NCBI GenBank assembly: GCA_903813345.2
Contig: CAIIXF020000011.1
Coordinates: forward strand, 7,464,571-7,528,570
From: Owenia fusiformis
Taxonomy: Eukaryota; Annelida; Polychaeta; Sabellida; Oweniidae
Direction: 5' to 3'
DNA length: 64,000 nt
Shown here piece by piece: positions 9,309-49,900 of this stretch (the first letter of the stretch is position 1; each line of letters opens with the position of its first letter). The notes under the pieces are model-generated. The model did no database searches, was not told where the DNA came from, and was given only the letters and a program-made list of their open reading frames with translations. The translations under genes were made by a program, and so were the position numbers.

Positions 9309-12300
9309 ATGTTTTCCGGGATGAACATTGCTCGAGCATGTACAGGAGTTGTAAAACATGCTTTTTTTCCAAAAATTATTTTTCCCACCTCAAGCTCTCC
9401 AACGTTGGCTAGTGTTCAGGTGCTTTTGCTACATACAAGTGGTGAGTAAAATCACGGACCTCGGCCAGATTCCTACCATTGGTCTCTAGGCTAAATATGT
9501 TGTTGTAAATTTACTCAAAATCTTGTAGTTGGTACCTCTTGCTCTTATTGGTCTTTCATATTCTGCAGTCAGTTTATCGATAAATATAACACGTCATACC
9601 TCAAATGTCTTGTCTCAGTCACTAGTCTAAACCATGTTAGCATCTCTTGATAAAAGAAGAAAATAGTTGAGTGGAAAGTTAAAGGCAGAATCAGATCTTT
9701 AGGGGGGTAACAAAATTACAAGCAACTTGTATAATTGACCTACCAATCTATTCCTTACAATCTCAAATACAATATCTCCAAAAAAATTCACAATATGTTA
9801 TAAATTGGTGAAGTTATTAATGATTCAAGGTGCAAAAATGGGTGAAAAATGTTTAAATTCTCCCAAATAATAAGAATGGTAACCATTCTTATAGAAAAAT
9901 AATACATTATTGTAAAAATCTTTAGTTTTCCTTGAATAAAGTATGCACTTTTGTGATTTTTAGAAAATAGACATGACAAGGAATGACATGAGCCAAAAAT
10001 ATTCTAAAATTGAAGCAATTTTTTGTTTAGCCTGCTAGCTATATCTGATTCTCTCTTTAATGTCTGGCTTTGGCAATTTCCGGTGATCATGACATCTATT
10101 ACGCTTTCAATTAGAAGGATATGCAACTCTGTGTAATAAACACAAGACCTTCAAAATGAGCAATGCCATGCTTCGCTTTTATGGCAATATTTCAAAAACT
10201 ATTAGATAGATATATATAAGTATTAGAGTCAATACGTCTAAATCCAAACGGGGGGGGGGGGGGGGTAAACCCGAACGGGTTGCAAACAATGGCAAGCAAA
10301 TCATTGAATTGAATAATAGCCCCTCTACTACCTCTATATTACAATTATATCCTGAAAGATACCATATAATGATATATACCAAACACTCTAACGATAAAAT
10401 AATCAATTATGATGATCTAGGTGTTCGGAATTACCCCCATGCTAGTGTTTGGAATTACCCCCACAAACCCTATGCCTTAAAATAAATAGATGTCACTTAT
10501 AAATCAATTATATTTGGGGTTATTGATATGCAGGGGTGTCAGGATCGAGTATCATTACTTCAGGGTACCATATAATGATATACCATCAATCTAACAAGTA
10601 AAACAATGAAGTTTAGTTAAGTGTTTGGATTTACCCCCATGCTAGTGTTCGGAATTACCCCCTAAAAAATCTCCTGTTTGGATTTACCCCCATAAAATAC
10701 ATTGTATTCAAAGTGGTATAACCCAGATTTTTTGACAATTTATCGGAATATTTTTTTGCAAATGCATTTTACAGCATCTAATTCACATAACATATATAAA
10801 ATTATTCTACAGATGTGCAGTACAGCCAAGCTAACTACATTTTTTGATGGGGGTGTTTGGAAATAGACGTATTGACTCTAGTATTATTTTGAATGAAAAT
10901 TAATTTTCAATGTGATTAAATCATAAAATATATTCAGTCTCATGTAAAAGTAAACAAAAAGACCAATAAGAACAAGAGGTATCAACTTCAATATGTTCTC
11001 TTCGAGTATTGCATTGTGGGTAATTATTTAAGAACACATTCCAATACAAACATAATATGTGGGAGAATGTTCACCTTCGGTATTGTCATAATTATGGTGA
11101 ATTCCATTTTTTATTAAATTACCAAAATGTATGGAGATAATCATGTTTTTATTTTTGAATTTCACTAAAATATGAAGAGAGTACAGGGCAAATATTTATC
11201 ACTCGAAGCTTGAGAGATGGTAAATGTAAAGGTCATTACGAGGGTCATGTTTTTGGGTGGTTATATTTTGGATGTACTATTTTTTGTTTCATATCTGATC
11301 CTCTCATTATTTTATTGAGCCTACCACCAATGGGGACTGGCTCGGGAATTGGAGTAAAATGTTTATATGATAAAAAAAATGTTTCTGCCAATGACATTTT
11401 AGAGGACAGGGAGACAATGTCACCAATGTAAGAAATAACAACATGAACCTGGACTGGATTGACATCTTTAGAAACTCTGATTCCATACTATAGTCAAGAG
11501 GGGGAATTCCCTGGAGTTCAGTGATGATTTGATTGGTCAAATTTTGTAAAAGTGCTTCGATTAAAATATTATGTTGATTTCTTTGGTGTTTACCAATATT
11601 ATTAATTATTCCATGTCAAGAGAAAGAAAGATGTAAGGAATATGTTTATATCAAATAAAAAATCACATCGACGTGTGATATTCAGAAACTCACGCTGACG
11701 CTTGGCGATCGGAAAAAATGAATGGGGGAGTAGCTGATTTCTGCTAGAAAATTCAATAAATCCAGAAGATTTATTTTTTCAAAAGAAAGCTTATTATCTA
11801 ATTACTGAATGAATAGGCACACAGTATGGAAGAATATGTTAGGTCTAGGGGTTTTTCTTTGGAGGGGGGTCAAACTAAATACTAAAAATGATAAAAATAC
11901 TAATTTGAAATATATTTTTCATCCCATTCTCCTTTCCTTTACCATTCAAGTTACAATAATTCATCTTGTATTCAACAATATTGTTTGTTATGAGAAATGA
12001 TGACCTGGTAGGTTTGATTGATAAGAGAGATTGCTATAAGGATAGATTGCTATAAGGATAGATTGCTATAAGGAGAGATTGCTATAAGGGGAGATTGCTA
12101 TAAGGATAGATTGCTATAATGAGAGATTGCATAAGGAGAGATTGCTATAAGGAGAGATTGCTTTAAGGGGAGATTGCTATAAGGAGAGATTGCATTTACT
12201 TACAGCTGATACTTTTCTGTTTGCAGACGTTGACTGTGGCAAATATACTGGCAGGAGATCAAAGAAGAGAACCAAGAGATTTCTTCAGCGTGCCAAACCT

Positions 12301-15300
12301 GAAATCTTAGACCTTGCCTTTGCAGGTAAATATATATTGTGGTTAAGATTACTCCCGTATGTCTATCAGTCCTTCATTCACTACTCCATGTTATTCCGAA
12401 CTTCTGTACATATTACTCTTCAATTTTTTTTCAAATTTCTTTTATTAAACAATTCTATGAAATCTTATATCCACTAATGGATATAAATGATTTTTTCAAA
12501 GCCATAAATATTCCTATATTTTTATGGACTGAACATCATTTCATGTTTGGATCATCACATTACTTATTCTTATATTCATAGGAGACATGGCAGAACAACC
12601 GTCCGTTGACTTGAGTTTACCACGTGTGGATTACCAGCAGTCTGAACAGGTCAAAGTGTGAGTAATACCAGTTCCTTTAAGAAAGTGTGTTTTCAAATGA
12701 AAATAGTGTCATGTGGTTAAGGAATAAATAATGATAGGCCATTCAGTATGGTGAAATTCAGCACAGGTTGGACAGAACAAAGCACGAATTGAAGATGAGT
12801 GCATTTGTACTGACATTCTGTCCAACGAGTGTAGAATTTCACCATATTTAATGGCCTATCATTACGTATTTATTCTGATTCAAACATAAAAATAAAAACA
12901 TTGTTTGGAAAATTGGGGTTCAGGGGTCCATAAAATAACCAAACTTGCTGCTGTTTTCGCCATTCATAAGTGTGACGTCACAATTTATAGATACATGGAT
13001 GATTGAATAGAGCACGGTCGTGCATCTATGGAGAATTACAGAATGTTCTCTATTGGCTATGCTGCATTCTGATTGGTTGAGAAATTCAATTTTAGCACGG
13101 TCATGTTTGAATTCATGATATTTTTGAAATGTGAATGTTTCTTTGAGTCCATATGTAATAGAATCTACCCTCAAAATAACTTAAGCATGTGATCATTATT
13201 TTACAGTGCCGAGGAAGCAGTTCAAAAAATCTTCAGTCTGGAGTTTGCAGATGGGGTGAGTGTAAAATAAATGTTTATCAATATTTTAAATGATTTTTGG
13301 GGTTTAAAAACAGCAAATATACACACAGGCCAATGGAAGCCAGGACTCAGATAGACTGCAGCTCACTAATTTTCCATAGTAGCTTGCCCTTCACAAGAGT
13401 CACTTTGGGTTGTGTGTAAATATTGCAGTATTAAAACTTCAAATACACTACATTAATCAAACTAATATCTTGTTTCTCTTCATATTTATTCACTTATATG
13501 TTTTTAATTAATTTTAATACCATAATAAGCAATCTTTTCAGTAAAAATGGTGACCTTATCGTACTGAACATGCACACATCTGTGGCTAAGGCTTTCTAAC
13601 TTTTCTATCCACAGATGCTTGTTTGTTGTCTTTATAAAGTACATTAATTTCCCTTGAGAATGCGCTATACAGAATCACACCCTGAACTTGTTGTTGAACA
13701 TAATCTTCATTTTAGTAGGATAAGGTCATCATTTTTACTGAAAAACCGCTGATAATCCTTAGTAATGTAAGCAAACCGAATAAAAAGATGGGTAGTTCAC
13801 CCAGGATGATAAGGTCTTGGATATTAACATTGAAATTTATCTTGGTAGATTTTTGAAGTAATTTTTACATGTTAAAGTATATATTTAAACTCACTAATTC
13901 TTCACCATATATCAATGGTCCTTAAGGCCATTTGGCAGTTGTGAAAATCAACCCACAAGTTTCAATGCATCAATCAGCATTTATGTTAGCAATGACATTT
14001 TGTTTGTATCACAACAGACTTTGAAGGGTCAGAAACCTTCTTTTATTTAAGTATCTAAACTTGAAAAGAAATATTTATCTAATAAGTTAGTCTCTTATTT
14101 TTATCTAACAGGCAGTCTTTTACACTAACAGTGTTCCTCAAGATCCTGTTATATCTGCTACACATTCTTTCTTCTACATGACAGTTTTCTTAAAGGCCTT
14201 GTTGTGTTGGGTGGACAGTCGTTCCTCTACATGTGACAATATTCTTAAAGGCCCTTCTGTAGTCAGAACTCCTTGTGATATAGATCAGTACATTTGTAAA
14301 TGAGTTAAAAACTAAGATATTTGTGGTGATATATATAGCTGTAGGACCTACATATTTGCCTGGTTCTATTGAATAAATAAACACACAGACTAAAAATGGT
14401 GTGTAGCAACACACAAATGATAGGAAAATGAAGCTGATTAGGTGAGCAAGTCTGGCCATTTGTAAAGTCCACTGGTAGTTCACCTCTCTATAGTTATAGA
14501 GTCTTCCACTAGACTCTTCTCTGGTATCTTTGGAAGTTCCTGGTGCAACAATCTTATTGGCTACAACATGATCCTTCAAAGAAATCTCATTGGTCACTGC
14601 CTTTTCCATTGATGAATCTTGATTGGTTTCTAGATCTTTCTCAGAAGCAATTTGATTGGTCGCTGGAACTTGTGGAAGTTTTTGCAAAGAAGCCTGATTT
14701 TTTAATTCATTGTTTTCAGTATCATATTTGAATATTTCTGAATATTTTTCTTCATGACATATTGCATTAATAGATTTATTTAATTCTTTAAAATCATTCA
14801 CTCTATCTTTGGAACCATCAATAGTTGCCTTGGAGATTTCTGCATTATGTTGTGATTTTGTATGTTTATTGTTTGCATTTTCACTGCTCTCTTCACTTTC
14901 ACCAGCTTCTGTTGTATGTTCAGGGATTGCATCTTCATTAGTGATTCTCTTGTTTTCCTCATCATGTGCTTTGTTGATAGAGTGTATCTCATTTGGAGTA
15001 CATGTAGCTATCTGGGAAACAGTCCAAGCACTTGTGCAAGGTATCACCTTATCACATGCTATTACATTTATTTTGATATTTGGCTTTGTATAATCCATAT
15101 TGATATTAAATTCTTCTCTAGGAGGTCCTTGCTGATCCCACTTGTAATCCATGTTACCTGGTATATCATCATCAGCCAACTTTTCTGTGTTATTTCTTTG
15201 TTTAGTGGAATATTCTGTGTGCTTGTTAGGAGCAATCTTTCTCTTACTTGATGTCTTTATTGTAACATGTTCCTCTTGTGGTATATCTACTGATACATTT

Positions 15301-18300
15301 TTTCTTCTTTTGCTTGGTACTCTGAGATATTGTCCTGATTGTATATTCTTCTGTGAGGAAGTAGATGTATCCTTAGGTTTAGGGTGTGAATGGTTGTCTT
15401 TGATTTGATTGGTTGCTTTCACAGTCCTTTCACTGACTGGAGTAATTCTGTTATGTTTGATGGGTACATATGATATACTGATTTTAGGTGGTATAACACC
15501 CTTTTTTGTAAGTCTTTTTATATGTCTGGACAACATTTTGAAGGTTGCAATTTGAATTCCAATCAGTATAAATATATGTATCGCTGTAATTATACTCAGG
15601 CTCATCAGAAAATATTCATTGTAACCATTTGTTATTAAACATCTCTTGTCTATAGATCTGTCATTTAAAAAAGCCAAGCTAAGAAATCCATAAACTGTCC
15701 ATATTCCCCATGTAGCGAAAATCATCTTTGTAGCAGTTCTCTTACTAAACGCACCTTGGTGATTATGTGATCGTTTTGTCAACAAGAAACTCTCGAGCCA
15801 CAAGAGAAAAATTCCTGTGGCTGTGGCGCACCCTGATGTGATGAGTATAATCAAAATGAACAAACATACATATGGCATGTCCAAATACCCAGTGCTTGCT
15901 AAAAGCGCCCTCAGTACTAGCATACTTCCAAATGTGATATCACTGGCGGCTAAATGGGTGCGGAACAGATTTGAAACTGTCTGGAGTTTCTTGTAGCGCT
16001 TGACGGCCATTATGACCAATGAGTTTGTGAATATCATTAGTGTCCCTAATATAATCTGAAGTGATATTATAATCGGACTATAGTATGTTGGTCCAGAGTC
16101 AGAATTGTTCCAAGTTGAGTTATTCATCGTCTCAAATATTGAAAGAAGAAAAGTTACTTCTGATTTTATTTTGTGTGTAGTGGATAAGTATGTTATTATC
16201 TTCCTCCAGCTTATTCTATACTACAGTTGTATATACACATATATTTAAGAAATTGTTCTCCTTTTCTGTGTATAACTTGAGTGTTATTGTAAATTGTATA
16301 TCGATTGAAGTAAATGTTCACTTTTTTTTTATTATTTCATTCACTTAGTTGCTTTATATTTTTATAATTTGAATGAAATTCTGAAAGTTGAGTACAATTA
16401 ACATGTGACCATTTCTTGTTTATTTTACAATGAATTCCATCAGTTAATTTGTAAGCAATCCCTATTCTAGCTCTGTTGAATATATCTTTAGACAAAATGA
16501 AATAATCTAAAAGATTACATGTCTCATTTCCGCTGTCATGTTTGCCTTATATTACTACAGTGTACATCCAGGGTGGGTCAAAAAAACATCCTTATTTTTT
16601 ATTTTGTGATGTTTTTTAAAAATAATGTATGGTTTCAAAAATCGATTTACTGGAGGTGCAGGTGTAATTGTTCCTAAGAATGGCATTAACAAGTCATTTC
16701 ACCCAGAAATTAGCTAAAGAATTCTATTTTTATATTAAAGGGATTCTGTGTGTGAATATTTCAATTATTTAGATTTCGCTGTGGATTCAATTTTAAATGC
16801 TTCTAAACGATCTTCTTATACTTACTTTGATTTCTATTAGTAATTATTAGACTTCCCCGTTTCATAAAAACAACGTTATCACAATTTACTCGACTGGAAA
16901 ATTCCTTTCTGGTCTATCGTAATAAAGATGAGCTGGAACACCTTTCAATCCTCAGTCTAAATATGGCTTTTCAAGGTTCAATAGAAGACTTTGAATGGTC
17001 CTTCATGCATAGTTCGTAAATAGAATCATCAGAAAAGGTTTTAAACCACCAAATAGTCTCTATGCCTGCAAAAAAATGTTGAACCATTTTGTCAGTTGTA
17101 TGTAAATCTTTTGGAATATACTCCCAATGTTCCGATTTTAACAAAAATATAAATTACGATAGTGTATGACCATAACATGTCTCCTATAATATATAAATCG
17201 CTTAAAATGTCCTTCTCGTATGAACAGTAAAATTTCAATGTTGATTATAACCTTAAAATATGGAGTTTACATTCACTCCGCCATTTTCTGTCAACCTTTC
17301 TAATCTCAAAATACTGCTTGAGAAATTCTTATACCAGTTTGGAGTGTATCGTGTAATCAATAGCTGCATTCCTAGCAGAAATATTTGTGATATTAATGCA
17401 AAATTTGATAAGCAACTTTTAAAAGATAAAACATATGGACATTTTTTGACCCAACCTGTAGTGAACACTCATTTCATTAGTGACTTAAATTCTACACCTG
17501 GGGTCTTATATGCCTCCCTCCCTTAGCAGATTGATATCAATTTACAGAGTTCTCTCTAATGAAATAAGATTTTTAACAGCTAAACATGTTTTACCTCACA
17601 AATTATACAATAGAGGAGACACCATCATGCTGACAAGCGCATGATCTGATTTCGGTATTTATTATATATTCATCACAGCTCAAATTATATTGATGGGCTG
17701 TGATTGATCAGATTACATGGCATGACCATTTGACAATTCAATCTAACGCATTGAAAGTCCTTGGTGTCATATGTGATGTTGTTAAAGCTAACTAAGTGAT
17801 AATGTCATATTGCCTGGATGAGCTATACGATATTCCATCCCAATATCACATGAAGACAATGTTGTTACACTAATGCATTTGCTGACATAAATATTATATC
17901 TAATTTCATTATCATGACATTTTATGTAATGTTTTGTTTTGAAAATGTGTATTATTTCATGAATAAAACTGCTCGATTACTTGATCGTTTGAATTACAAA
18001 TTAATTTGAGTTACGACAGATTGAGCAATAGTCCTGGGTGATAATTAGTGTATTGACGCTGTAGATGTTGTAATTTTATAAAATCAGGCCCGTAGCCAGG
18101 GTGGGGGGTTCGCAGGGTTCGGGCGAACTCCCCCCCCCTGGCCAAAAATTCTTTCAAAATCATGCAGTTTTTCACCATTTTGAGCACTTCTCAAGTGATT
18201 TTAGCCATACTTCGGCCAAAATTGTCAAATGTGAACCCTCCCCCTGTAAATTTTTGAAAACTGACCCCCCCCCCCTTGGCAAATCCTGGCTACGGGCCTG

Positions 18301-21128: not shown

Positions 21129-21210
21129 GAAGATAACTCAAATATTAGTTGACGGATTTTCTTCATATTTGGTGGAGAGATGTATATTGATGAATAATTT
21201 TACGCAAGAT

Positions 21211-22180
21211 TTTCAAGATGGCCGCCGCTTTAAAAATGATGGGACTTTTTCGCAAAAATCATAAATTTTTCATTCTATACCAAAGTAATTAATATTATTG
21301 TTTGAAATTTTGGTAGTATATTTGCAACATCTATCTATTTCACATATATTCCGTGTTTTTCATCCTGACCCCCAGGGCCGTGTATGGGGGGTCAGGAAAA
21401 CAGAAATTTTCGCTAATTTTTAGATCTTTCTGAAGTATGGCTTTATTATACTCAAATGAAAGGCAATTTAGAGTAGATTGCAAATATTGTATCTTTTTTC
21501 TGATTCGAGCCTCGTAAAATTCAAAATGGCCGTCTAATGTACGATTTCGCAATAATTTTTCGATCCCTTCAAAGTATGGCTATATAATACTCAAATTGAA
21601 GGAATTTTGGAGTAGATCACAATTATGGTAATATTTTTCAGATTTGTACCTCAGAAAATTCAAAATGGATTTTTTCAAGATGGCCGCCGCTTTAAAAATG
21701 GCGGGACTTTTTCGCAAAAATCATAAATTTTTCATTCTAAACCAGAGTAATCAATATTATTGTTTGAAATTTTGGTAGTATATTCGCAACATCTATCTAT
21801 TCCACATATATTCAGTGTTTTTCATCCTGACCCCCAGGGGCCATGTATGGGGGGTCAGGAAAACAGAAATTTTCGCTAATTTTTAGATCTTTCTGAAGTA
21901 TAGCTTTATTATACTCAAATCAAAGGCAATTAAGAGTAGATTGCAAATATTGTATCTTTTTTCTGATTCGAGCCTCGTAAAATTCAAAATGGCCGTCTAA
22001 TGTACAATTTCGCAATAATTTTTCGATCCCTTAAAGTATGGCTATATAATACTCAAATTGAAGGAATTTTGGAGTAGATCACAATTATGGTATTATTTTT
22101 CAGATTTGTACCTCAGAAAATTCAAAATGGCTGCTTTGCAGGAATTCGCAATTCTAAAATCTAAATTTTTCAATTTTAAC
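21211..22180. repeat. Tandem 462 bp repeat, two copies plus remnant
   Basis: The unit starting TTTCAAGATGGCCGCCGCTT at 21211 repeats at 21673 with only scattered differences, including a shared GACCCCCAGG / GGGGGTCAGG mini-palindrome. A third partial copy begins near 22130. No coding frame persists across copies. Confidence 0.85.
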
Positions 22181-24850: not shown

Positions 24851-25027
24851 ATCTTTTTCTCTCTATCCCTTAATAATTACATGTGTATAAAACAGGGTTA
24901 ATGCTTGAAAATGAAAGCATAGGAGTAAGTGTAAAATATACATGTGTTCTGTTATCTTATATAGTATCTATCTGTACAAAAATGAACCTTTGTGTGAATT
25001 TGTAAAGTCCCATTTTAGTAAGATGCA

Positions 25028-25625
25028 ATCTTGCAATCAAATACATTGCCACAACTTGTATGCAATCTTGCATTCAAATATATTGCCACAACTTGTATGC
25101 AATCTTGCATTCAAATACATAGCCACAACTTGTATGCAATCTTGCATTCAAATACATTGCCACAACTTGTATGCAATCTTGCAATCAAATACATTGCCAC
25201 AACTTGTATGCAATCTTGCATTCAAATACATTGCCACAACTTGTATGCAATCTTGCATTCAAATACATTGCCACAACTTGTATGCAATCTTGCATTCAAA
25301 TACATTGCCACAACTTGTATGCAATCTTGCATTCAAATACATAGCTACAACTTGTATGCAATCTTGCATTCAAATACATTGCCACAACTTGTATGCAATC
25401 TTGCATTCAAATACATTGCCACAACTTGTATGCAATCTTGCATTCAAATACATTGCCACAACTTGTATGCAATCTTGCATTCAAATACATTGCCACAACT
25501 TGTATGCAATCTTGCATTCAAATACATTGCCACAACTTGTATGCAATCTTGCATTCAAATACATAGCCACAACTTGTATGCAATCTTGCATTCAAATACA
25601 TTGCCACAACTTGTATGCAAATTAT
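25028..25625. repeat. 37 bp minisatellite, about 16 copies
   Basis: The unit is CTTGCATTCAAATACATTGC followed by CACAACTTGTATGCAAT, with very few changes (AATCA, TATATT, ATAGCC, ATAGCT). No stop codon occurs in any plus-strand frame, which makes long spurious open frames of about 200 codons. High copy identity implies recent expansion. Confidence 0.95.
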
Positions 25626-31777: not shown

Positions 31778-31902
31778 CTAATAGGGTTTATCATTCTTGG
31801 GACGTTTGAGTTGCACTTTGAGTCTCTTCATACCAATCTGGAAGCCATTCATGGCCTGGATAGCTGCCTGGGCAGACATTGGGTTATCATAACTGGCAAA
31901 AC
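31778..31902 (-). CDS. CELF1/2: CELF last coding exon v14
   Basis: Enters in phase 1 and encodes [20 protein letters not shown] to KRPKNDKPY, with TAG at 31780-31778. This is the family's invariant C-terminus. Confidence 0.97.
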
Positions 31903-34900
31903 CTAACAACAAATATAATATTATGGGATGTATAACCATAAACTGTCATGGTATGGTTTCAATAGCTAATAAGAAATTAGCGCTGAATGACATCAAGGGG
32001 TTTCAGACATAATTTTAACATAGTTCATTATGAAATCTTTAGTATTCCCCCAAAAAACATTTTATTATTCTTTAAATATTATATATTTGTATGTATGATA
32101 TAATATTATTGAATTCAAAACATGAGATGCTCTTTTGGCTCATCAAGTGCCATCTTCATCATGGACTTCTGTTCTATACTAATTTATTACAATACCCCTG
32201 GTACCAAACTGATTGTTTCTATATAATGTACTAACCAAAACATTTGCTGAGATTTGTCTGTTTGTCAATGAAGACTTTAGAAGAGATCACATTGCCGAAG
32301 GGCAGGAAGGTTTGCATCAGGTCATGGTCACTGAATTCTTGGGGGAGGTGGTAGATGAAAAGATTTGCACCCTCTGGACCTAGAAATAATACAATAAATT
32401 GTTTAAGTCTGATTTAGACTATAGAGCTTGAATTTCTAAATCCATATAGTACTTTATTGTTGTCTTATTGGTACATCTATATATTACAATATCTAATAAT
32501 AATGATAATCAGAGTATTTACATGTATATATAGGGATGAGAAAAGAAAACTAAGAAGCAAGAAATATCAACACAGTATTGTTGAAGCAATGACAACTGTG
32601 TGATATACCCTCATGAAAGCACTCAAGCCTATTCCACATTTTGCTTATCAAGAAAGTGAAAGAACATTGAACTACCATCTCTTCAATTATAATCTTTCAC
32701 TGCATATCTGTTTCCTTCCTCCATTCCTTGTTGACCTCACAGGCCCGTAGCCAGGATTTGCCAAGGGGGGGGGGGGGGTTCAGTTTTCAAAAATTTCCAG
32801 GGGGGGTTCACATTTGACAATTTTGGCCCAAATATTTGCCAAGGGGGGGTTCAGTTTTCAAAAATTTCCAGGGGGGGTTCACATTTGACAATTTTGGCCC
32901 AAATATGGCTGAAATCACTTGAGAAGTGCTCAAAATGGTGAAAAACTGCATGATTTTGAAAGAATTTTCGCCCAAACCCTGCGAACCCCCCTGGCTATGG
33001 GCCTGCCTCGCTGTATAATTCTCAAACATGAGTCATTTAAATTGTTGATATTTACCTTCCGTTTGTTTTCCAGCAGGAGTGTCTGTAGCATTAGCTTGTT
33101 GAAACTGTGCTGCGGCTGCTTGGTTAGTGAATGCTGTAACATAAACCACAATTAGGAGTCAAAATGCCAACTTTGGTCTTTTCTTGTGTTAAATAATAAA
33201 GTATACGATCTACATGCTCCCTCTCTCATTACATTTTTGAAATAGGCCTGTTATAATCAAGTCAGTTGGTCTTATTTAACATATCTGATGAAACCAATTG
33301 CAAATGAATATTCTCAAAAATGTTTCTTTGAACATTAATCGAATTAAATCTAAAATATTCTATTTTAATTTTCAGTTCATTTACTACTCTACATTAAAAT
33401 ATCTTAAATATTGAATTAAAATATTTTCATCACATTTTAAGATATACATGTTTACACAGCATGTAAGTTTACAGAAAAATGTGCATAGAAATATTGAACA
33501 CTGTATTTCAATAGTCTCGTGTTTGTCAAGATGGACAGTTTACACCACAGTCCCAAAATTATATAAAATATCAGCTTAAAGTGAGCTATTTCTCAGGCCT
33601 GTGAGCAAGACTGCACCTCAGAATCAATACAAATCTTCACATAGTTCAAGTAGAAAACATTAGAAATATTTATACAACAGTATATGTAAAATATGTGGGA
33701 TGTGTTACATCTAGATGTGGGAGTTAGTAGGGTTACAACTACTTTTCAACACACCATGCATCAATGATATTTGCCATGCATCAATGATACAAAGCATGCA
33801 TCAATGATACAAATCATGCATCAATGATACAAACCATGGTTCACTGATACAAACCATGCATCAATGATTACATATACCATGCATCAATGATACAAACTAT
33901 GCATCAATGATACAAAGCATGCATCAATGATACACACCATGGTTCATTGATACAAACCATGCATCAATGATACAAACCATGAATCAAAGATACATACAAT
34001 GCATCAATGATACAAATCATGCATCAATGATACAAATCATGGTTCACCACTGATACAAACCATGAATCAAAGATACATATACCATGCATCAATGATACAA
34101 ACCATGCATCAATGATACAAACAATGCATCGATGATACATAACATGCATCAATAATACATAAAATGCATCAATGATACACACCATGCATCGATGATCACT
34201 CTCACTCTAAAACTTGACATCCATACTGAATCTTACAATCTAAAACACCATGAGGCATTCCCCACCAAAATATACCAATCGGTTATTAAGATTTTAGAAC
34301 AACTAACATCAGTCAACATTACAACTATCACAATGTGCTGGGGTTTGTTATTAAGTAATAACAAGAGCTTCCCTAAACATGAACTGGTAAATTACATAAA
34401 TAACATATGGCTTTTATATACCGATTATTTCATACATCATACTTGTTACATAATCTATGAATATCTATAAACCATTGTTAAAATATTCAGTTCATTTCCA
34501 GGGAAAACTCTCTTCTGGCATTGCTTATAATTATACATAAATATTTGTTATTATAACAAAATAATTTTATCAGAATATCACAAAAAGCCACCAACACGTA
34601 ACCAGGGCATCTTAATTTACTTTATCATATACAATATGTACCAGAATGGTGGTTGTTTACAGCAACAAGTGTGTGCTTTAAACCAATCAGTTACCATAAT
34701 GGACTTTTCAATTGAGATACTCAAGACCAGGGGTGAAATTTTGGTGTGAATGAGGTATCTACCCAGATACCATAAAACACATTGGGTGAACTTTTATAAT
34801 TATGTCAAAGGACCCTAAAGTTTGTGAAATATGTCACAGCTGTGTGAAATATGCCACAGCTGTATGAAACATGTCACTGCTGTGGGAAACATATGGCAAC

Positions 34901-37900: not shown

Positions 37901-40900
37901 AGTAGTAAGCATGCACCATAGCATGGAAAAATCAAAATAAAACATTATTTTCTCCATAATTACACACTTTTTAAATATGCATTGTGGATGACTTTCATGT
38001 TTGAAATCTTAAAGGTGATAGTGTCAACAAAGAAAAGTGTGTTGTTGAAAGCAAAAGCTTATTCAGTGAAGCCCAAAATAACAAGATTAGACGCAATAAA
38101 ATAAAGCCAAAGCTCAATTCCAAGGTAAAGCTCCAAAATTATGTAACACTCCACTTCAAGATAAAGTTTTAACACAAGTTAAAGCTACACTTCAGGGTAA
38201 AGCTCTAACATGAAGAGGCTCTACTTCGAGATAAAACTCTCAAATCAAGGTAAAGCCATTAATTCAAGGACCCTTAGGCAAGACTTCACTTGTGTTAAAG
38301 CTCAACAATAAGATAAAGCTCCAAATGAAAAGCTCAACATTTCTAGATAAAGCTCCACATGAAGGTGAAGCTTCACTTTAAAGTGCAGCTCCACCTAGTG
38401 GAAGAATTGCCCACCTGTGCTAGGGGACACGGATGTGCTACCTGGAATTATAATGTGACATTTAGCCAGTATTATAGTATCATCTAGATTAGAGAACCAT
38501 GCTGAATATTACTCTATAATCATGTCTATTCCATTCCATTAAACAACTCGAAAACTCAATTGAAGTTACTGATTTTCAATCTGTTCTTATGGATGTGTTT
38601 TTTCACAGTCAGAAATATACACAATTTGTGTCACCCCCTCATCATATTTTAATCAATAGCTTAAATATATAAATTTGGAGCAAGCTCATTAATACATGTA
38701 TGTCTGTTTCATTTTTCATTTTTGCTTCCGATTCCACTCTTTATATTCAGGGATTTAATTCAAAACATGACCCTCTCAGCATTTTTCTCATTGAAGTACA
38801 GTCAGAGGGACACTTATGATTTGCCAATTACAATTTTTTATAATTCATTAGCAAAATGTAAAGTTTCTCTCAATACCCAAAGTTCAGTGATATAATTACG
38901 TCTTAAATAAAAGCCAAGGGGTTCAGTCAAACACCAATGTGTCAGATTTTGTTATAGAATCATTGTTATATTAGGTGATAGATGATAAAACAAACACAGA
39001 TGACAATCTCAACCTTAGGTTTTATAAGAAAAAAACATTGTATTTTAACCCAGGCTCTAGCAATAATAATAATAACAATACAGTCTAACACAAAGCACCA
39101 AGAAATGGCTTGAGTTATCCCTTCATCCATTTATGGGTTATTAAAATACCATGTTTTCTTGGGGTTGTGGACTTGACTGAGAAAGCAAGGAATTAAAGTA
39201 AAGCTAGCAATAATTTTTCCTTTGAGTGTACTTCTCAAAATTATAATCTTGAAAGTATCTTAAATATGGGTTTCCAAACATTTATAGTGCAACAATTACA
39301 CTACTTAATACTATATAATAATATATATTAAGTATATATGCTATATGCATGGGTGTTGTGGTATATCATAAAGGTTCATGCTGAATGTTAACCTTTCTTA
39401 AGTTTTAGAAAGTTTTTATATTCAGCATCAATCTTTTACAGGGTCCTTAAATCTACACATACAAGTACAAAACACTATCCAGGAGGCAGAAATCATCCTG
39501 GGAATCGTAAAATCTACTTTTCACTATGTTGCTATGGTAAAAGACTACTGTTTCTATGGAAACCAGTATGGATGCTACATTAACCAGTATGGTTGCTATG
39601 GTAACTGGGCTAACCTGATGTTGGCATGGCAGCAGCAGTTGTAGGACTAGCAGCAGCAACAGCAAACTGGGAAGGGAGACTTGGAACACTTACTAAACTC
39701 TGGCCACCTTAAATAGAAACACAAATACATAGTAACAGCTTGTTACTATGGTAACCAATGGTCTGACATCAAGGTGCCCTAAAATGGTTACAAACACTTA
39801 ACATCCTAAATGAAAAGGAAATAAAAATACTGACTGATACTAACATGAAGCGTCAAAAGTAACAGTGCTTATACATAAAACTGTCAAAAATAACCTATGA
39901 TTTCTACCTCCTGTTTAAGACACATAGCTTATACTATAGACATGTTTACAACTTAACAAAACATAAAAAGGTTAGCAACAGATTCTCAAAACTCAAACAC
40001 AAAACATTAACACAAAAACATCAAAGCAAGAATGCACAACAGAATTATAATTTAATTCCTTACCTGGGCTATAGGGGGCACTACCGGGAGTGTTTGTGAT
40101 ATTCGCTAAGGCCGCAAGATTCTGTAAGTTCTGGAGATTTTGTAAGCTCGCTACGTCACCTGTAACCATAGTAACAGCTTCTGTAACCAATCAGAAATAT
40201 ATCAGTATTTTGACATTAATATGAATCAACCATGATTAAATCAAGATTGATAGTATTTCAGAATCATACTAAAACTGCTCAAGAAACTTGAAGCAACATC
40301 TACTAAATTTGATGCATAATGAAGTTCTTATTAAATGTTATGCAATATGACCTTTTCACCACTTGCTGTTTCATCCCATCTACATGAGTATGCTAAAATT
40401 AAATGATGGTATAAACAGTTTTAATCATGTGTTTGTCTACTAAAATCAACACGGCACAAAATATACCAAAAAGTCATGCTGTCTAAATGAAAAAAACAAA
40501 AACAGACTTTCAAATAAAAAGGTCATTTGCATAAACTGTTCATGAGGCAAAACATGAAAATCTCAAATACTGAAGTTGAATAAGTGATGAAATTAACGTG
40601 ACTTAAAAAATCCGAGACACATTTCATCAGAGATTTAACTTCTCGATTTTGGCCAGATAAATTGAACGAAAATTCATATTTTGCATTTCAGAATGCTTAT
40701 GATGCAGTAAAACCATGTTTGCCAATCTGGTAGGCTACAAAGCAATGAAAGCAGGCAGAATTAGTGGCAGCTTGCGTCATAACTAGAGACACATACAGTA
40801 TAACACGGACACATCACAACATCAAAGACACACCAACTTATACTGTACGACACTTAAACTTATAATATGACACACAAACTTATGGTATGACACACAAACT

Positions 40901-43900
40901 TACTTCAACAAAAACATCACTACACATAACTGAAGTGAATTGAACATCGAGGACTGACAAATAAGATTTAACAGTCTCTTGATAATATCCGAAAATGATC
41001 ATGTTACTAGACAAAATTTCTTGTTTTGTACGATTGGAGAGTAGTAGCGCTTTGTAATTCAGAGTGTATTATTATAAAAAATCATATTTTTGAAATTAAT
41101 CTTCTAGTATCTTCTAGTAATTAATCTTTTAATCTTCTACGATAATCGAATTTTGTACAAATGCCATCATCATTCATTTTAAGCTACACTGGAAGATTAT
41201 GCTGCATAAACTATTATATCATACGCTAACTAAAGCAAAGTTACGGCAATGTATAAAGCGCAATTAAGCAAAGTCCACACACATGAAGAACACACAAACA
41301 GAGAACAATGTACAAACACAAATGGCAATTTCAATACATGTGAATTCAAATTCAATTTAAAAATAATTCTTCAAATACTAAAATAAAGCTGTTGTTTCAA
41401 CATTAACAACATCCCACCCATTAATACATAAACTTCACATTTATTTCATCCACATTTAACTTGAAACAGACATCATAAAGACAAACAATTAAATCATTAA
41501 TTCAATAAACATACACAAATAGAACATGTTGAATCATCAGGTGTATCAATTTGTAAATTACATAATTTTGAACAAAAGTTTCATTTTTAAAAGAGCTCAC
41601 TGGGACATTTCTAAGACTTTTATTTCTTCTCATTTCCAGAATTTAAAGAACCTGTGCCTACAAAGAGGGGAAGGAAAGTTGTGGGACACAAAGGGTATTT
41701 GGTAGATAAGATATGGGACAAATAAATGATGGAGAAATATTTCAAAGAAACATCATGTTCTTTTGTATATTTACTGAATCAACAATCCATGCATGCAGAA
41801 ACAATCTATTTGGATGAGAAAAACAGAAGAGTTAAAATATGATTATGTTGACTGATATTATAACACTGTACTCTAGCAAATTCTTGAAAATTGATAAAAA
41901 AGATTTGAAACTTTCTTCTTTGCATTTTCAAATGTTTTTAACCGAAGTACTCATAAATGTGAATTAGAAGCATTAACCTGAACTCATATGTACAAACATA
42001 TATATCCTTTTCATTATTTAGCATTCAATAAAATGAAACATGTGTTTGACATTAACCAATAGTTGTTCAAATAAATAAACTTAATGGTTTAATATAACGC
42101 TTATGCCAGACAACAGGTGCTTTTTTATATAACAATCGTACAATAAATTATATCATTTTTTCAAATAAATCAACATCATTATGAACATTAGACATTCTAA
42201 ACCATGTTTTCTATTGTTTGACTATGTATTGTATGTTACAGTTTTCAATTTTACACTTTATATTTAATGAATCAAATAATTAAACATGATTATGAATGAT
42301 CTTATATTATAACATTTCCACATTTCAAGGTTTTCAATAATTAATATCAGCATTACATTTTGACTTGATTTGAGTTTAACAATGTTTGTTGGATATGAAT
42401 TTTTAGATTTTACAACTTGTAATGAATATGTGTTTATAAATAATTATTAAATCTCATCCAAACAGATTGTCATATGATTAATGGTATATAAATATACAGT
42501 TTATATATGATCTACGCAGGCAGCCATGTACCTGAACCATTACTAGTAGGTGGCGCCGCCGTGCCATTCCCGCCATTAGAGCTGTTTGTGTTACTCAGGC
42601 CGAGTAGATTTCCTAGTGCAGCTGCGATACCTAGAGAAGTGCGAGAAATAATGCAAAGAGGCATGAATGATCGATGTTTGGATGTATGGATCATCAAGAA
42701 GCTCAAGGCACATGGATGGAACTAAATTATACATGGTTTCTAATGTGCTATTACAATAGCAGAGGCAAGGGTTTGTCAATTTTGATAAAATTCACGGAAA
42801 AAGCCATGTAGCAAAAATATATAAATATTGGCAATTTGGCAAATTTATATGACAGGCAAGCTTGAAATAAGCTTTAAAAAGGAAAAAAGTATGCATCTTT
42901 TATTAAAGAAAAGCCAATATATATCTGATCATAAAATATATGAAATAAATGTCTGAAATATTAAATGATATAGACGAACATTGATAAACACACAGTTTCA
43001 GATATCACATCAAAACATAAATAATAAATACACAAACACCAACCATAAGGCAATGTTTTTACATGTATGATATATAAGCTTCAACTAGAAGCCTCAAACA
43101 ATACAGCCACAAATAAATATAAACAAAAAATATATAAATAATAAAATAAAAAATATTAATTATACAACTAAAAATGAAACTGATAAAAATAGAAATGAAA
43201 ATACTAGAAATTGCATCACTGTGAGACAGATGTTTGATTATAATACAATGTGTAAAGCTTGGTCACATGTGGGTGGATACTGACAATAATATACAGTACA
43301 TGTCACAACTAACCCCATAATAACAATGTTACGCCTTTAAATGTGCGTATTATATTTATATGGTATCGCAACTAATTAAAGTTCAGTAAACACTAAAAGA
43401 ACTAGATAAGAAAAATATAATTTCATCAATCTGTAGAAATGCCAATCTTTTCCACTTTTTGGGCAGGAAACTATAGATTTTTCTTGGTTTCAAGTACAAT
43501 TTTTTAATTGGTCTAAGATACCAAGGAATCAACAAGGAATCAATGAAATTCCTCAGAGTACACACACGAATCAAGTGTTTGCTTGAGTCAAGTATTGAAA
43601 CAAGAGTTGTTATTCGCAAAAAAATATGAAATGCTGAGTAAGGGATTTCAGTTGAACTGTTGAAATGTAGGGTTAGTTATGAGTTGAACTGTAATGCAGC
43701 TTTTTACAAAATGTAATGTAGCTGTATTGAATTACAAATATATGAGGTAATGCAGCTTATTACATTAGGGTTACTTGCATACATAATGGGCAATGTAGCT
43801 ACTTAGACTACTAAAATGCAGCTACTAGGATAGAAGAAATAGCAGGAAAATGCAGTAATAAACATACCATTGGTGTAGCTACTTACAATAGTGAAAAAGT

Positions 43901-46900
43901 GTAATGCAGCTATGCTACAGTAGTGTAATGGAGCTTTGACAATAGTATGACAGTTACAAGGGTGTAATACAGCAACTTACAATAGTGTATATATCTACAT
44001 GTAGGAGGGTGTATTGCAGCTATCTACACAGGTGTCATACAGCTACAAGAGTTGATGCAGCTACTTACACTAGTGTAGTGCAGCTATACTATTATAAAAC
44101 AGTTATTTACAATAGTGAATGCAGCTGTAGAAGAGTGTAATGCAGCTGTATACACCAGTGTACAACAGCTATATGGGTTTATTTCAGCTACATACAATAT
44201 TGTAATACAGCTTGAAGGGTGAAATGCAGCTATATACATACACTCGTGTAGTGCAGCTATACAGGTATACTGCAGCTGCTTACAATAGTGTAGTATCACT
44301 ACAAAGGAGTAATGCAGCTACTTACCTGGGTTGCTGCCAGCTGCTACAGAGGCAGCTGCTGCTGTGATAAGCTGCTGGAGGGCAAGGGCATTAATTCCTA
44401 CAATAACCAGAGCTCCCATTAGATTACACTGGACAGAAAGGGGTTAACAGATGCATGGGCTTGGATGGCAAGGGCATTAATTCCTACAATAACCAGAGCT
44501 CCCATTAGATTACACTGGACAGAAAGGGGCTTGGATGGCAAGGGCATTAATTCCTACAATAACCAGAGCTCCCATTAGATTACATTGGACAGAAAGGGTT
44601 AATGGATGCATGGGCTTGGGGGGCATGAGATTAATTCCTACAATAACCAGAACTCCCATTAGATTACACTGGGCAGGAAAGGGTTAATGGATGCATGGGC
44701 TTGGGGGGCAAGAGATTAATTCCTACAATAACCAGAATTCCCATAAGATTACACAGAGTTAATAGTTGCATTGGCCTTGCGGGCAAGGGCATTAATTCCT
44801 ATAATAACCAGAACTCCCATCAGATTACAAAGGACGGGGAAAAGGTTAATGATTGCATTGGCTTTGAGGGCAAGGGCATTAATTCCTACAATAACCAGAG
44901 CTCCAATTAGATTACATTGGACAGGAAAGGGTTAATAGAAGAGGCCTTATCTCAAAATAATATCAGTTACAATTCTTAAATTTCACAATTGTCTCATGAT
45001 TTTGCCAGAACTTAGCTGAATTTCACAATTCTGATTAAAGAATATATCACAAAACAGCTACTATTGTTCTCTTGCTATATACTGTTGACCATCCATCAGG
45101 ACAAAAAGAGTTAATAATGACATCATGGTAAAATCATGAATCAGTTAAATTTTATGAATTGTGTTCTCTGATACATTTGCAAACTAGTGTATTTATTTAG
45201 GATTAAACTATGTTGAATCAGTTATCTAGAAGTGAAAGTATGAGGTTAATACACAAATTAAGCATTAAATAGTTTCTAAAATATTTTAGTCTACAAAGGA
45301 TGGAAGATTTATAAGTTTCAATGATATTCTCTATACATAAAGGCTTCTCTGAGAATTCCTAAAAAGAACCTCAATGATACAAATAAAGCTATTTGTGTTA
45401 AGTCTAGCAAGGGTTAATTTGAGCCATAACCTGGAGCAATGCATGGGACTGTGGATAAGTAGTCTATAGTTTACTGTAATGCTTTTGCAATACTACAGGC
45501 TATGCACAGCAACAAAAAATATATTAACATGTATATAGCTAGCTACAGGTTCAGTAAAACCAGATCATGTGAACACCTGAATAATATTTATGCCAAACCC
45601 AGACTTGAGCCGGGGAGGGGTCAGCGCCAAAAAGTTTTTTCAAAATCATGCTGTTTTTCACCATTTTGAGAACTTTTCAAATGATTTTGGGTCAAAGTTG
45701 TCAAATGTGAATCCCTGGATTTTTTTGAAAAGTGAATCCCTTAGCAAAAGCTGGCTACAAGCCTAGAACCCAAATTCCAATAATTTTAGCAAAACATTCT
45801 ACCCCTTAAAATGTGAAAACCCCTTAAAATGTGAAAACTACGAGAATAATGTTCACATAAGAACGTTTTACTAATGAATACAAGAACTAGCGTATTAGCA
45901 CATATTTTGTTATCTACTACAATTATACATGATTTTATTTGTAATTTGCCAGCCTTTCACAGGAGAATTGATTGATTCTGCACAATTGTGCATAACTTTT
46001 TGACTGGTCCTCATAATAAATGTACTTCCCCAGATTGATTTTAATTGCTTTAATATTTTGTTTATCAATTAATTTTTGAAGAATTTTCTGAATTTAAAAT
46101 TACAATTGCACATTGAGTCTCCTATGAAAGGCATTTACTTTTCATTGTACAAACAAACATTTCTAAGATAAGACAAACATTACAGACTTATTTCTTGTTT
46201 CTATTTCCACCACCTTTTTCTTTGAAAAATTTGAGAATTCATCATAATATTGTGACATCTTGTTAACTAATAGATCGATGAGGATAGACACACATATATG
46301 CAAGATGACCTGGCCATTACTGGTTGTGTAGAAAAAAATTCATATTTCTAAAATCTGATAGACTTCAAATTCATTTGAAGATTTGAGACCTTTCAAGTGA
46401 TAAATATATTATGTTTAAAAATAAAACTGATCGTGAATGATTTACTCACAGAATATTTTTCCCATAACACAGAGATGGCCTTAGCACTGCAAAAAATACA
46501 GGGTGTCCAAATATGTGTACAACACCCTGTATTTCAGAAAATGTATTATATGATTGATCTAGATACATCATGTATAGATGGCGACTAACCTGGTTGGTTG
46601 GCAAGGTTACCGAATGCATTGACATTTCCACCCGAAGCTGCTTGTTGAAGTAACTGAAATAGTAAAAAAAAGAGAAAGTTTATTTTTCTTGAAGGCAATT
46701 GAAGAATTGACATTGTAAACTTTGTGATATATGTTATTGTATATTCATGTAAAATATTGTTGTATACTTACTGCATGCTATTATAATATGTTATAGTATA
46801 CTAATGTCTTATTGTAAGATATAATTGTATACTTACTGCATGGTATTGTAATATGTTATTGTATAAGTATAGCGAGATATTGTAATATCTTTATAGTTAC

Positions 46901-49900
46901 TGCGATATTGCACTATTTTATTTATACTTACTGCTAGATATTGTGGACTAACTCCCCCACCCCCTGCTAAGCCTGCTAACCCAGCAGTGTTTATGATGCT
47001 TGCATTCATTTGTTGAACCTTTTTAAAATCTTTTTCTTTTTGGGTATCTGCGAATTTTACTACTAATGGCGCTCGGCACCCCTGCAATCAAAGAGTAAAA
47101 GACAAGATTAGTAGATGAAGAGTTAATCTGAAACCCTTGTAACAAACTGCAAATGATGTCCAATTTTTCTGCAAAAGTGTCAAATGTAACAGTTATTCCC
47201 CCTTTATCTAATGCTTATATGCAACAAGACACTCTACCCCCTAACCCCTTCTCTCTTACTGAGTAAGAGGTACAGAGTTTTAATACAAATAATATCCCGA
47301 TAATATAACTAGAAAATGTAGTAAAATGAATAATATAAGTATTTATGTTCAAATGTTATAAAGTTATGAATGTAAAATGCAGATTATGTTGTGATGACTG
47401 TAGAAATGAGAAATCATGTCACTAGAATAATATGTCCTCAATTTGCTAATATCTTTCTGTACATATTAACACAATTAACTGAGAACAGTCAATTATGTTA
47501 TTTTTCTCTTTTCTATTAGCACATCCCACGAGAAAACATTCATAATATTATCATGTTTTAATCACAAAACAAGAGAATTTCATGAGATTAACAAAAAAAT
47601 GAACATTCAGTCATGTTGTCAAGAGTCAAAATAGTAAAGAAATGTTAGAGAATCAGGCAGTTATTGACATTTTGCAGAGAATTGAGTAAAATAAAGAGAA
47701 CTTCTTGGCAGGGCCCAGTGCCCTATTTCCTTCATTTATCTGTTTTCCAATTAACACTTTTGATGAATATTTTCTTAATTATTTTTGCCTTAATATAATA
47801 CATGTGGTATGCTCAAATATATATTATTAATTCAAACAGATGTTTTTTTTCTGCAAAAGCATCATCTGAAGATATAAATTTTATACAATAAATTAATAAA
47901 TCAATTTATTGATGAATATTGAATATTTTGGTATATCTCATGAACTTTCCTAATCAAGCAAAATAATTTTCAATAGAAAGAACGAAAAAAGAATAAGCCT
48001 CATAATGAGAGCTCAAACAAATAGCTTTATCACATTGTATTAATCTAGAATCTGACATTCTTATTTAATTGATGATCTTCTTAAGCCTACCTCAAAAACT
48101 AATAATACTGAAATCATAATCATTTCTACAGAAATTATTCAACGTTAACTAAACAAGACAAGATAACTATTGTCTCTATTTTTGTATATTTGCTGTACAT
48201 GTATTTGTCTCCTAGAAATCCAATTGCAACTATCACAGTTGCTATACTTTTTTCACAATACCAGTTCATTCTGGACATACTTAGCCTACATCTATAGAGA
48301 GATGACAAGATAATCTTTAAATATTTGGAAGGCAACTAAATCCTGATGAATCGGCCCTTTCCGACCTTGTCTGGGGGATACGGATTCATAGGAATTAGCT
48401 GGTCTTGTTTAGCTGGATTAGGGATTGAAGTATTGATTCGCGTAGGCGCTTTAATCTCTAAGTCCATTGTCAAATCGACTCTAGGGTTTCTGAGGATGAT
48501 ACAGATAGACTCAATCATAACTTTAAGGTTGTCTTACTTTACTTTCTTATTAATTAGTTTGTTACATTTTTCCTATTTAGTACACACAGTAAATGAAAAA
48601 GAAATTCTGAGCTTTTTAGATGCTATATATTCAATTTAGCCTACCCTTTTCAATAGGTTGTTTTCACTTAAAAGAGAGCTTCGTGTACAGGCTCTGGGCT
48701 CAGGGTATATTTTAGCCAGGAATCATAACAGTAAAACCTGTGTCAGTGGAACACCTTTGGCACCTCAAAATAGTGTTTAAGAGGCATTCCACTTGCAGAG
48801 GTTCATTAAACACTAATAATAACTATGGGTAAAAGACAATTGAAGTGTTCCACTTATGGAGGTTTTCTACTTAAAGAGGTGTTCAACTTGCATGTTTTAC
48901 CCTATTTAGATACCTCAATACCCTCTTTTCAAATCAATAAATGATATTCTACTTACTTCCATAGTTTGTGAATGGTGCATGGCTTTTATAGCATTCTGGG
49001 CACACTGCCGACTTGAATATGTTACAAAGGCACAGCCTAAAACATAAAAGCATAATTATAATTCCTTTAATTTTCTAGTATACATTTAGTTATAATGTAT
49101 TTAGAATCATAAAGCATGGCTATACTAGATATCATATCAAAGCCTAAGTTTCGCATAGAGCTATAAAAAATACTTGTACTCATTGAGACTATTGCCATTT
49201 GCACAAATATAATTACAGAGATTCCCGCATCTTAACAACAAATTCAATTAAATCTTCATCAATAGATAACAAAAGCAACAATTGCATTTAAATTCCAATC
49301 GATTATCTTGCTGTTATTACCAATAGTCTTGCATCAAATCCCTGGAACTCCCCCTTCCCCTTTCCCCTTCCCCCTTCCCCTTCCCCCTCCCCATATTAGC
49401 CTCACATCCAGAGGGTGGTTATATGAGGGAGTTACAAGGGCTTGAAGCAAGACTACTGCCAATATGAAACACTGGAGCAACTTAATAATTTAAAGTTCAA
49501 ACTTGACATATTTCATATTCATACCTCTGCTTTGACTGTTCTGTTCACGTAATACTGTACATTCCTCTATGCTACCAAATGGAGCAAACATCATACGGAC
49601 GTCATTTTCTGTACACTTTTTAGATAACATTCCTATAAATAATTTTCTTTCTTCTGCAAATAGAACAAACAAATCATTTAACAACTTATTAATAAAAAAC
49701 ATAACAAAAATTCACACCAATGTGACACATGTAAAACTATCATGCATGTGAAGGTGATGTAGGAAGGAGTTTTAACTGTACCTTGAATATTCCCAGAGAG
49801 TTTAGCATTTAGTATTTCATGTTAAAATAAACAAATAAACAAGAAATGCCACAACTGTAAATGTTAGGTACTATTACCACAAAAGTAGTAGTAGTTACCC

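Follow-up and report, generated by a model that had tools for sequence, protein, structure and literature searches.

How does the splicing machinery treat an exon whose own splice signals are repeated in tandem on both sides? The question is raised by v6, a linker exon of a CELF1/2-like gene on the minus strand of a 64-kb stretch of the Owenia fusiformis genome (contig CAIIXF020000011.1, positions 7,464,571 to 7,528,570), hereafter called the window, with position 1 at its first letter. Exon v6 (44326..44397, −) was read from frame and splice sites. It has the 72 nt and the in-frame character given in the initial annotation of this DNA; being symmetrical (phase 1-1), it could be skipped with the frame preserved. 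The arrays that bracket it are likely to be minisatellites of the mirage type, that is, tandem duplications which include or abut an exon–intron junction and grow on its intron side. At present, v6 looks less like a regulatory switch than like a local case of a recurrent class, in which repeats of an ordinary kind have grown over exon edges.

Each such array is a natural experiment in which near-identical splice sites lie in one transcript and the cell must choose among them. An annelid genome with several of them would extend a phenomenon known from single amphioxus genes. Furthermore, exon definition, selection against decoys, and the gain of introns through tandem duplication could all be tested directly on such arrays. 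They are also a warning for annotation, as exons and alternative splice sites may be called in them where none exist.

The Acceptor Side of Exon v6

The authentic acceptor TTATTGTAG (44398..44406, −) and the first exonic bases form the sequence TTATTGTAG|GAATTAAT, which is found on the minus strand once at v6 (first exonic base 44397) and in six upstream copies. The array (44407..44937, −) is built of units containing the intron tail, TTATTRTAG, and the first exonic bases. From its distal end, the extra junctions lie at 44885 (copy 1; site at 44886..44894, −), 44798 (copy 2, TTATTATAG; 44799..44807, −), 44722 (copy 3; 44723..44731, −), 44637 (copy 4; 44638..44646, −), 44553 (copy 5; 44554..44562, −), and 44483 (copy 6; 44484..44492, −). 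Five of the six are exact over 17 nt, and the copy at 44798 has one mismatch. A search of the 64-kb window with this 17-mer, allowing up to three mismatches, returned seven same-strand matches, all seven in the acceptor array, and a single opposite-strand match at 46809. The seven near-identical acceptors described previously were thus recovered, with spacings of 87, 76, 85, 84, 70, and 86 bp, i.e., a range of 70–87 bp in place of the earlier 67–87 bp.

In alignment, the copies cover positions −25 to +22 of the v6 junction. Within a unit, a TTAAC branch-point-like stretch is followed by a pyrimidine run, which ends in CAG in some copies, and then by TTATTGTAG; the AG is kept in all six extra acceptors. 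Tandem Repeats Finder reported 44457-44598 with a period of 70 and 98% matches, and 44527-44936 with 82% matches. The units closest to v6 are near-identical, and the wider array is more diverged. The simplest reading of this gradient would be that the array grew at its exon end.

The Donor Side of Exon v6

The authentic donor GTAAGT (44320..44325, −) scores 8.7 bits, the highest of the 12 donors scored in the gene. An array in the GTAAGTAGCTGCAT register begins exactly at this donor (44325) and extends for approximately 620 bp downstream, its copies decaying. The repeats proper (43694..44319, −) follow a register of about 21/42 bp, GTAAGTAGCTGCATTACAC, with 13 degenerate copies; 12 places match the GTAAGTAGCTGCAT register with up to three mismatches and 13 with up to four. 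Exact GTAAGT is present in three of the 13 copies (starts 44068, 43980, and 43886). All repeat intron bases only (alignment span 0 to +25), and on this side the unit does not span the junction. The array of GTAAGT-containing units reaching the true donor, as initially annotated, is correct as to where the array starts; the hexamer is exact in just those three copies, all of them on the intron side.

Neither the acceptor array nor the donor array had a second match in the 498-Mb genome within the limits of the search tool. An origin as a dispersed repeat or transposon was rejected, as within those limits the only match of each array was its own locus. An assembly artefact was considered as well, given that repeats are easily misassembled; however, the copies differ by substitutions and indels, unlike a duplicated stack of reads, and comparable arrays occur at other loci, which makes an artefact barely conceivable.

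A Second Array in the Same Gene

The earlier description lists only the v6 arrays, to which a donor array at another exon of the gene is added here. Exon 46932..47081 (−), at the end of RRM2 (tblastn, frame, and splice sites), has the donor junction GCA|GTAAGTATA, with GTAAGT starting at 46931. This donor and the repeats downstream of it, including a 34-bp array, occupy 46748..46931 (−). In two GCA|GTAAGTATA copies the GTAAGT starts at 46836 and 46771, and two exact GCAGTAAGTATA copies lie downstream of the donor among others that have decayed. The copies span the junction from −13 to +25, with an alignment score of 30 against a shuffle mean of 17.8. Three of the 25 junctions of the gene are copied or abut an array, two of them with spanning units (46932 and 44397) and one on the intron side only (44326).

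Several features by which mirages are recognized are present in this gene. The repeat unit spans the exon–intron boundary at the v6 acceptor and at the donor of exon 46932, the authentic copy is joined to the exon body while the others are intronic, and splice signals are kept in extra copies (AG in 6/6, exact GTAAGT in 3/13).

In the alignment test, matches without junction spanning were found at two further CELF junctions, 40180 and 39615. The exon at 40180-40064 (−) shows two acceptor-like TGGTTACAG copies 21 nt apart (window 40159-40180), and the choice between starts at 40180 and 40159 is in-frame, amounting to seven residues. A 21-bp array of GTTACCATAGCAAC-like units lies a few bases past the donor of exon 39707-39615 (window 39528-39615, −), and motifs resembling these units also stand directly upstream of that exon.

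Similar Arrays Elsewhere in the Genome

A rate for such arrays was obtained from two family samples of 80 RRM exon loci and 40 kinase exon loci. After sites with a low score had been set aside (17 of 97 and 12 of 79, respectively), 80 RRM and 67 kinase junctions were tested. One junction in each sample carries a junction-spanning array (L072 and L123), i.e., 2 of 147 in total. At L072, a 30-bp unit of the junction recurs 12 times after the exon end TTCAGTCGCTATGGCAAT|GTAAGTCATTC. In L123, judged by eye to be a MAP2K-like exon, the array lies at the donor. The borderline kinase case L120 (score 28, −11 to +8) was left uncounted, and L118 and L128 reach scores of at least 28 without spanning the junction. 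At L039, an RRM locus that was spotted visually, does not belong to the junctions tested, and is excluded from the rate, the exon end CCCCTACA|GTAAGTACAAAGG precedes six copies with decayed donors. Beyond the donor of L072, the reading frame runs through the array for 140 codons without a stop, with YGNVNHSFS repeated; use of an inner donor would thus insert in-frame peptide repeats.

Word scans of the genome select arrays by their splice words and hence yield examples and not a rate. Three CAGGTAAGT words (tandem CAG|GTAAGT) with gaps of 15–45 gave 139 matches versus 50 for the reversed word. At least 10 CAG|GTAAGT arrays, a lower bound, come from the 100 of these 139 matches that were listed; eight of the 10 have an open exon's donor as their starting point and repeat the last 15–52 nt of that exon together with at least 10 intronic nt. 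Four of the eight exons have Pfam matches at E<0.01 (L081, NIF phosphatase; L084, kringle; L085, PF15874; L088, PP2A B56), and the remaining four (L082, L083, L086, and L089) are backed by an open frame only. On the acceptor side, three TTTCAGGT words (tandem TTTCAG|GT) with gaps of 20–50 gave 373 matches versus 114 for the reversed word. Among the matches listed, 22 arrays were distinct, of which 20 were fetched, the other two being the L082 array and one that was left out. Thirteen of the 20 run up to an open exon and terminate at its acceptor; 12 of these copy at least 10 exonic nt. Twelve of these 13 exons were submitted to Pfam: eight matched at E<0.01 (7tm_3, UPRTase, SSF, HMA, zinc finger, GMC, CRAL_TRIO, and Cep192), one matched tRNA_SAD at E 0.034, and three had no Pfam match. 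Several of the matches at E<0.01 lie below the curated cut-off, and the L109 stretch was submitted with a wrong start, its true acceptor being 31 nt further upstream.

Taken over both scans, 20 of the 21 exon-edge arrays copy 10–52 exonic nt. This result bears on the idea that unrelated intronic minisatellites reached the exon edges of v6 by chance, with no seeding from the junctions. Such contact would not be rare, given that tandem arrays make up approximately 5.5% of the 80 RRM loci, and the donor-side array of v6 does copy intron sequence only. Nevertheless, with exonic bases copied in nearly all of the scanned arrays, and with acceptor-side units at v6 that hold the junction and the first exonic bases, chance contact is a very improbable explanation.

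Two exons, L094 (UPRTase by Pfam) and L109 (USP-like by eye), have both acceptor and donor arrays and are the closest parallels to the doubly bracketed v6. None of the eight donor-array exons has a junction-spanning acceptor array. A tendency of arrays to occur on both flanks of one exon (2/13 vs 2/147, Fisher p 0.03) was rejected as post hoc and tiny, two of the 13 being without a testable donor.

Site Strength and Splicing Outcome

The scoring of each copy that had been proposed as a check was carried out with a human-type matrix. The outcome differs between the two sides of v6. The donor, at 8.7 bits, stands far above its register copies, none of which exceeds 3.0 bits, and above the 3.7 bits of the strongest donor-like sequence in the array, at 43867. 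In contrast, the true acceptor, at 0.9 bits, is the weakest of the 13 acceptors scored in the gene, and the six copies score 0.9–1.5 bits (0.9 for copies 1, 5, and 6; 1.5 for copies 2, 3, and 4). CAG sites at 44668, 44514, and 44428 reach 2.1–3.8 bits, above the TAG sites; joining at the one adjoining v6 would yield GTG TAA, an immediate stop, as read from the sequence and phase. The 39 copies in five donor arrays (two in the CELF gene and those of L072, L039, and L123) include none that exceeds the authentic donor and four that equal it; the other 35 have a lower score or no GT.

Every extra site tested at v6 (six acceptors and eight donors) leads to a premature in-frame stop, after 14–45 codons from the acceptors and two codons beyond the normal end of v6 from the donor-like sites. 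Use of an extra site is therefore expected to be wasteful or regulatory rather than to lengthen the protein. We infer that splicing normally uses the exon-adjacent copy only, as this copy alone is joined to the exon body and to the strong donor; the extra copies would then be mostly silent and near-neutral.

A mechanism along the following lines may be envisaged. The intron tail, the AG, and the first approximately 20 exonic nt of v6 would have been duplicated, with later rounds of duplication proceeding outward from the exon body. The donor-side array, for its part, starts exactly at the donor. A duplication at a junction would spare the exon body if the exon-adjacent site were still chosen, leaving the surplus copies intronic and free to grow and decay. 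Given that strength does not separate the copies at the v6 acceptor, position beside the exon body and the strong donor would decide, with exon definition as the basis. Occasional use of an extra copy would result in a stop-containing transcript.

The same measurements can be read differently, namely as a functional decoy in which a weak v6 acceptor set against six equal copies tunes inclusion or a poison isoform, perhaps for self-regulation of CELF. In line with this, the authentic acceptor is outscored by three of its copies and equalled by three, all six would introduce in-frame stops, the least variable stretch of the unit sits on the acceptor core (see below), and skipping of v6 keeps the frame. 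Plain UGU also reaches 48.7 per kb in the donor array, compared with 30.7 per kb across the remaining introns of the gene. However, UGUU/UGUG, chosen as the CELF-type motif, is depleted relative to shuffles, with 4 occurrences versus 12.9 expected in the donor array and 2 versus 8.7 in the acceptor array. Self-regulation through CELF motifs is thus weakened but not dismissed, in view of the dense UGU of the donor array. Moreover, unrelated genes share the architecture, so that no link to a splicing regulator is necessary, the donor copies are far weaker than the donor, and the site scores themselves depend on a human-type matrix. We consider a functional decoy rather unlikely. The possible tuning of v6 inclusion that was initially suggested gains little from the donor scores, the stops, and the motif deficit; the equal acceptor scores would allow competition at that side, where the array may have a regulated role.

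Points That Weigh Against Ordinary Repeat Growth at Junctions

Several observations do not sit easily with mirage-type growth as the explanation of the v6 arrays. The first concerns seeding. The proposal that minisatellite growth was seeded from splice sites is upheld on the acceptor side (−25 to +22) and by recurrence in the genome, but for the donor array of v6, which repeats the intron side only, seeding from that junction is no more than a possibility. Secondly, the acceptor copies are no weaker than the authentic site, three of them being higher and three equal. Thirdly, variation within the unit is lowest at the acceptor core, with one variable column in 23 and a scan p of ~0.02, although the window length was picked after seeing the data and other lengths gave p from 0.01 to 0.43, so that the result is not relied on; neutral decay would not predict low variation at this place. 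In addition, a part of the word-scan arrays does not fit, i.e., two of the 10 donor arrays (L087 and L090) and seven of the 20 acceptor arrays (L091, L093, L095, L096, L103, L106, and L110).

The last point is the frequency of copies at junctions. In the 18-mer test, a local copy was found for 1 of 80 junctions versus 52 of 634 random flanks; at L072 the site scored in this test was an array copy, the true donor lying elsewhere in the same array. The gapped test gave 3 of 80 RRM junctions, two of them not spanning, versus 15 of 198 random positions. As copies are fewer at junctions than at random, arrays at junctions are probably not fully neutral.

A special proneness of donors to array birth was also considered and rejected. 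The donor word occurs 4,020 times and gives at least 10 arrays, and the reversed word occurs 4,455 times and gives seven, which is no clear excess at similar word counts and agrees with repeat growth of a generic kind. It seems that arrays can arise at any position and that they are, if anything, thinned out at junctions. A further-reaching proposal would be that junction arrays form a large class and a standing reservoir of near-identical decoys, whose copy number at a weak site such as v6 sets the rate of stop-containing splicing and so tunes the output of a splicing regulator by a fast-mutating repeat; we hold this to be improbable.

Relation to Known Systems

Repeats at splice junctions have precedents. 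In humans, a polymorphic variable number tandem repeat of 31 bp at the exon 13–intron 13 boundary of CBS copies the donor junction and has been studied for splicing. The closest relatives of the v6 arrays are the amphioxus mirages. Mirages are tandem repeats across exon–intron boundaries, described at both edges in globin genes and named after Adh3.[PMC3087553] Six and three units are described in two haplotypes, and the Adh3 mirage is somatically unstable.[PMC3087553] PGBD5 and troponin C also carry mirages in amphioxus.[PMC3902484] Reverse transcription polymerase chain reaction and the Adh3 data suggest that mirages do not interfere with splicing,[PMC3087553] and both papers report splicing to be undisturbed.[PMC3087553, PMC3902484] The mirages of Adh3, BflGb6/BflGb9, troponin C, and PGBD5 resemble v6 in having boundary-spanning 5' or 3' repeats, the authentic copy at the exon, and many units with AG/GT signals, the BflGb6 units being 81–100% alike. 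Unlike these, the arrays described here have an annelid host, bracket one exon on both sides, and recur in two family samples and in word scans. In keeping with an annelid host, the genome gives three matches to the annelid erythrocruorin linker family of Pfam (best E 5e-7), a family not known outside annelids.

Internal tandem repeats at human exon–intron boundaries are likewise minisatellites at exon edges, with units of 30 bp on average, but they were found via segmental duplications and have transcript support for altered introns.[PMC2812944] The polyubiquitin gene UBC shares with v6 a tandem array of splice-competent sites, in this case dual-specific AG|GT; there, however, the sites mark the limits of a coding repeat, and their use has been reported.[PMC10809524]

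A model of intron gain was put forward with the amphioxus globin mirages,[PMC3087553] and intron or exon creation has been proposed for amphioxus mirages and human boundary repeats.[PMC3087553, PMC2812944] By analogy, the v6 arrays might be a stage at which GT...AG or AG|GT units become new introns or exons. The units of the CAG|GTAAGT arrays do read GT...AG, and the L072 frame stays open for its 140 codons; yet single units of 17–87 bp are short for introns, and every tested extension at v6 meets a stop. Such a role is thus highly improbable, more so than chance contact, and mirage-type growth is retained as the preferred reading. A literature search on annelid minisatellites at intron splice sites found no report of junction arrays in annelids within the text that it covered, and turned up earthworm metallothionein (PMC12783039); a search on mirage minisatellites led to work on lancelets. 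What is new here is that the mirage kind recurs in an annelid and that its arrays can lie on either flank of a single exon at once.

The CELF Gene and Other Features of the Window

The minus-strand gene is CELF1/2-like, judging from its predicted protein. The exon at 49525..49653 (−), which encodes the first part of RRM2 and serves to identify the gene, has CELF2 and CELF1 as best PDB matches. The end of RRM1, RRM2, and RRM3 were located by tblastn with CELF stretches as queries, and an RRM start on the same strand approximately 40 kb upstream, outside the window, is probably that of RRM1. Three RRMs and a divergent linker, as in CELF1/2 proteins, are thus present. Frame and splice sites pointed to 13 exons, and further ones may exist; the last two found (31778..32379, −; tblastn, frame, and splice sites) carry RRM3 and the stop. 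Exon v6 matches the CELF linker query weakly (tblastn, 50% over 24 amino acids, E 0.063).

Elsewhere in the window, about eleven 16-bp repeats with a common CAATCTCTCCTTA come after GTAAGTAAATGC at 12203 (window 12021-12203, −); they are possibly another donor-adjacent array, although no exon was recognized there. An uninterrupted frame of 676 amino acids (window 14190-16220, −) resembles, by eye, a seven-helix receptor with a long third loop. Two further tandem repeats are a 462-bp unit duplicated with 96% matches (window 21210-22130) and a 37-bp array of 16 copies with 97% matches (window 25023-25620), where the long plus-strand open frames are probably a by-product of the period.

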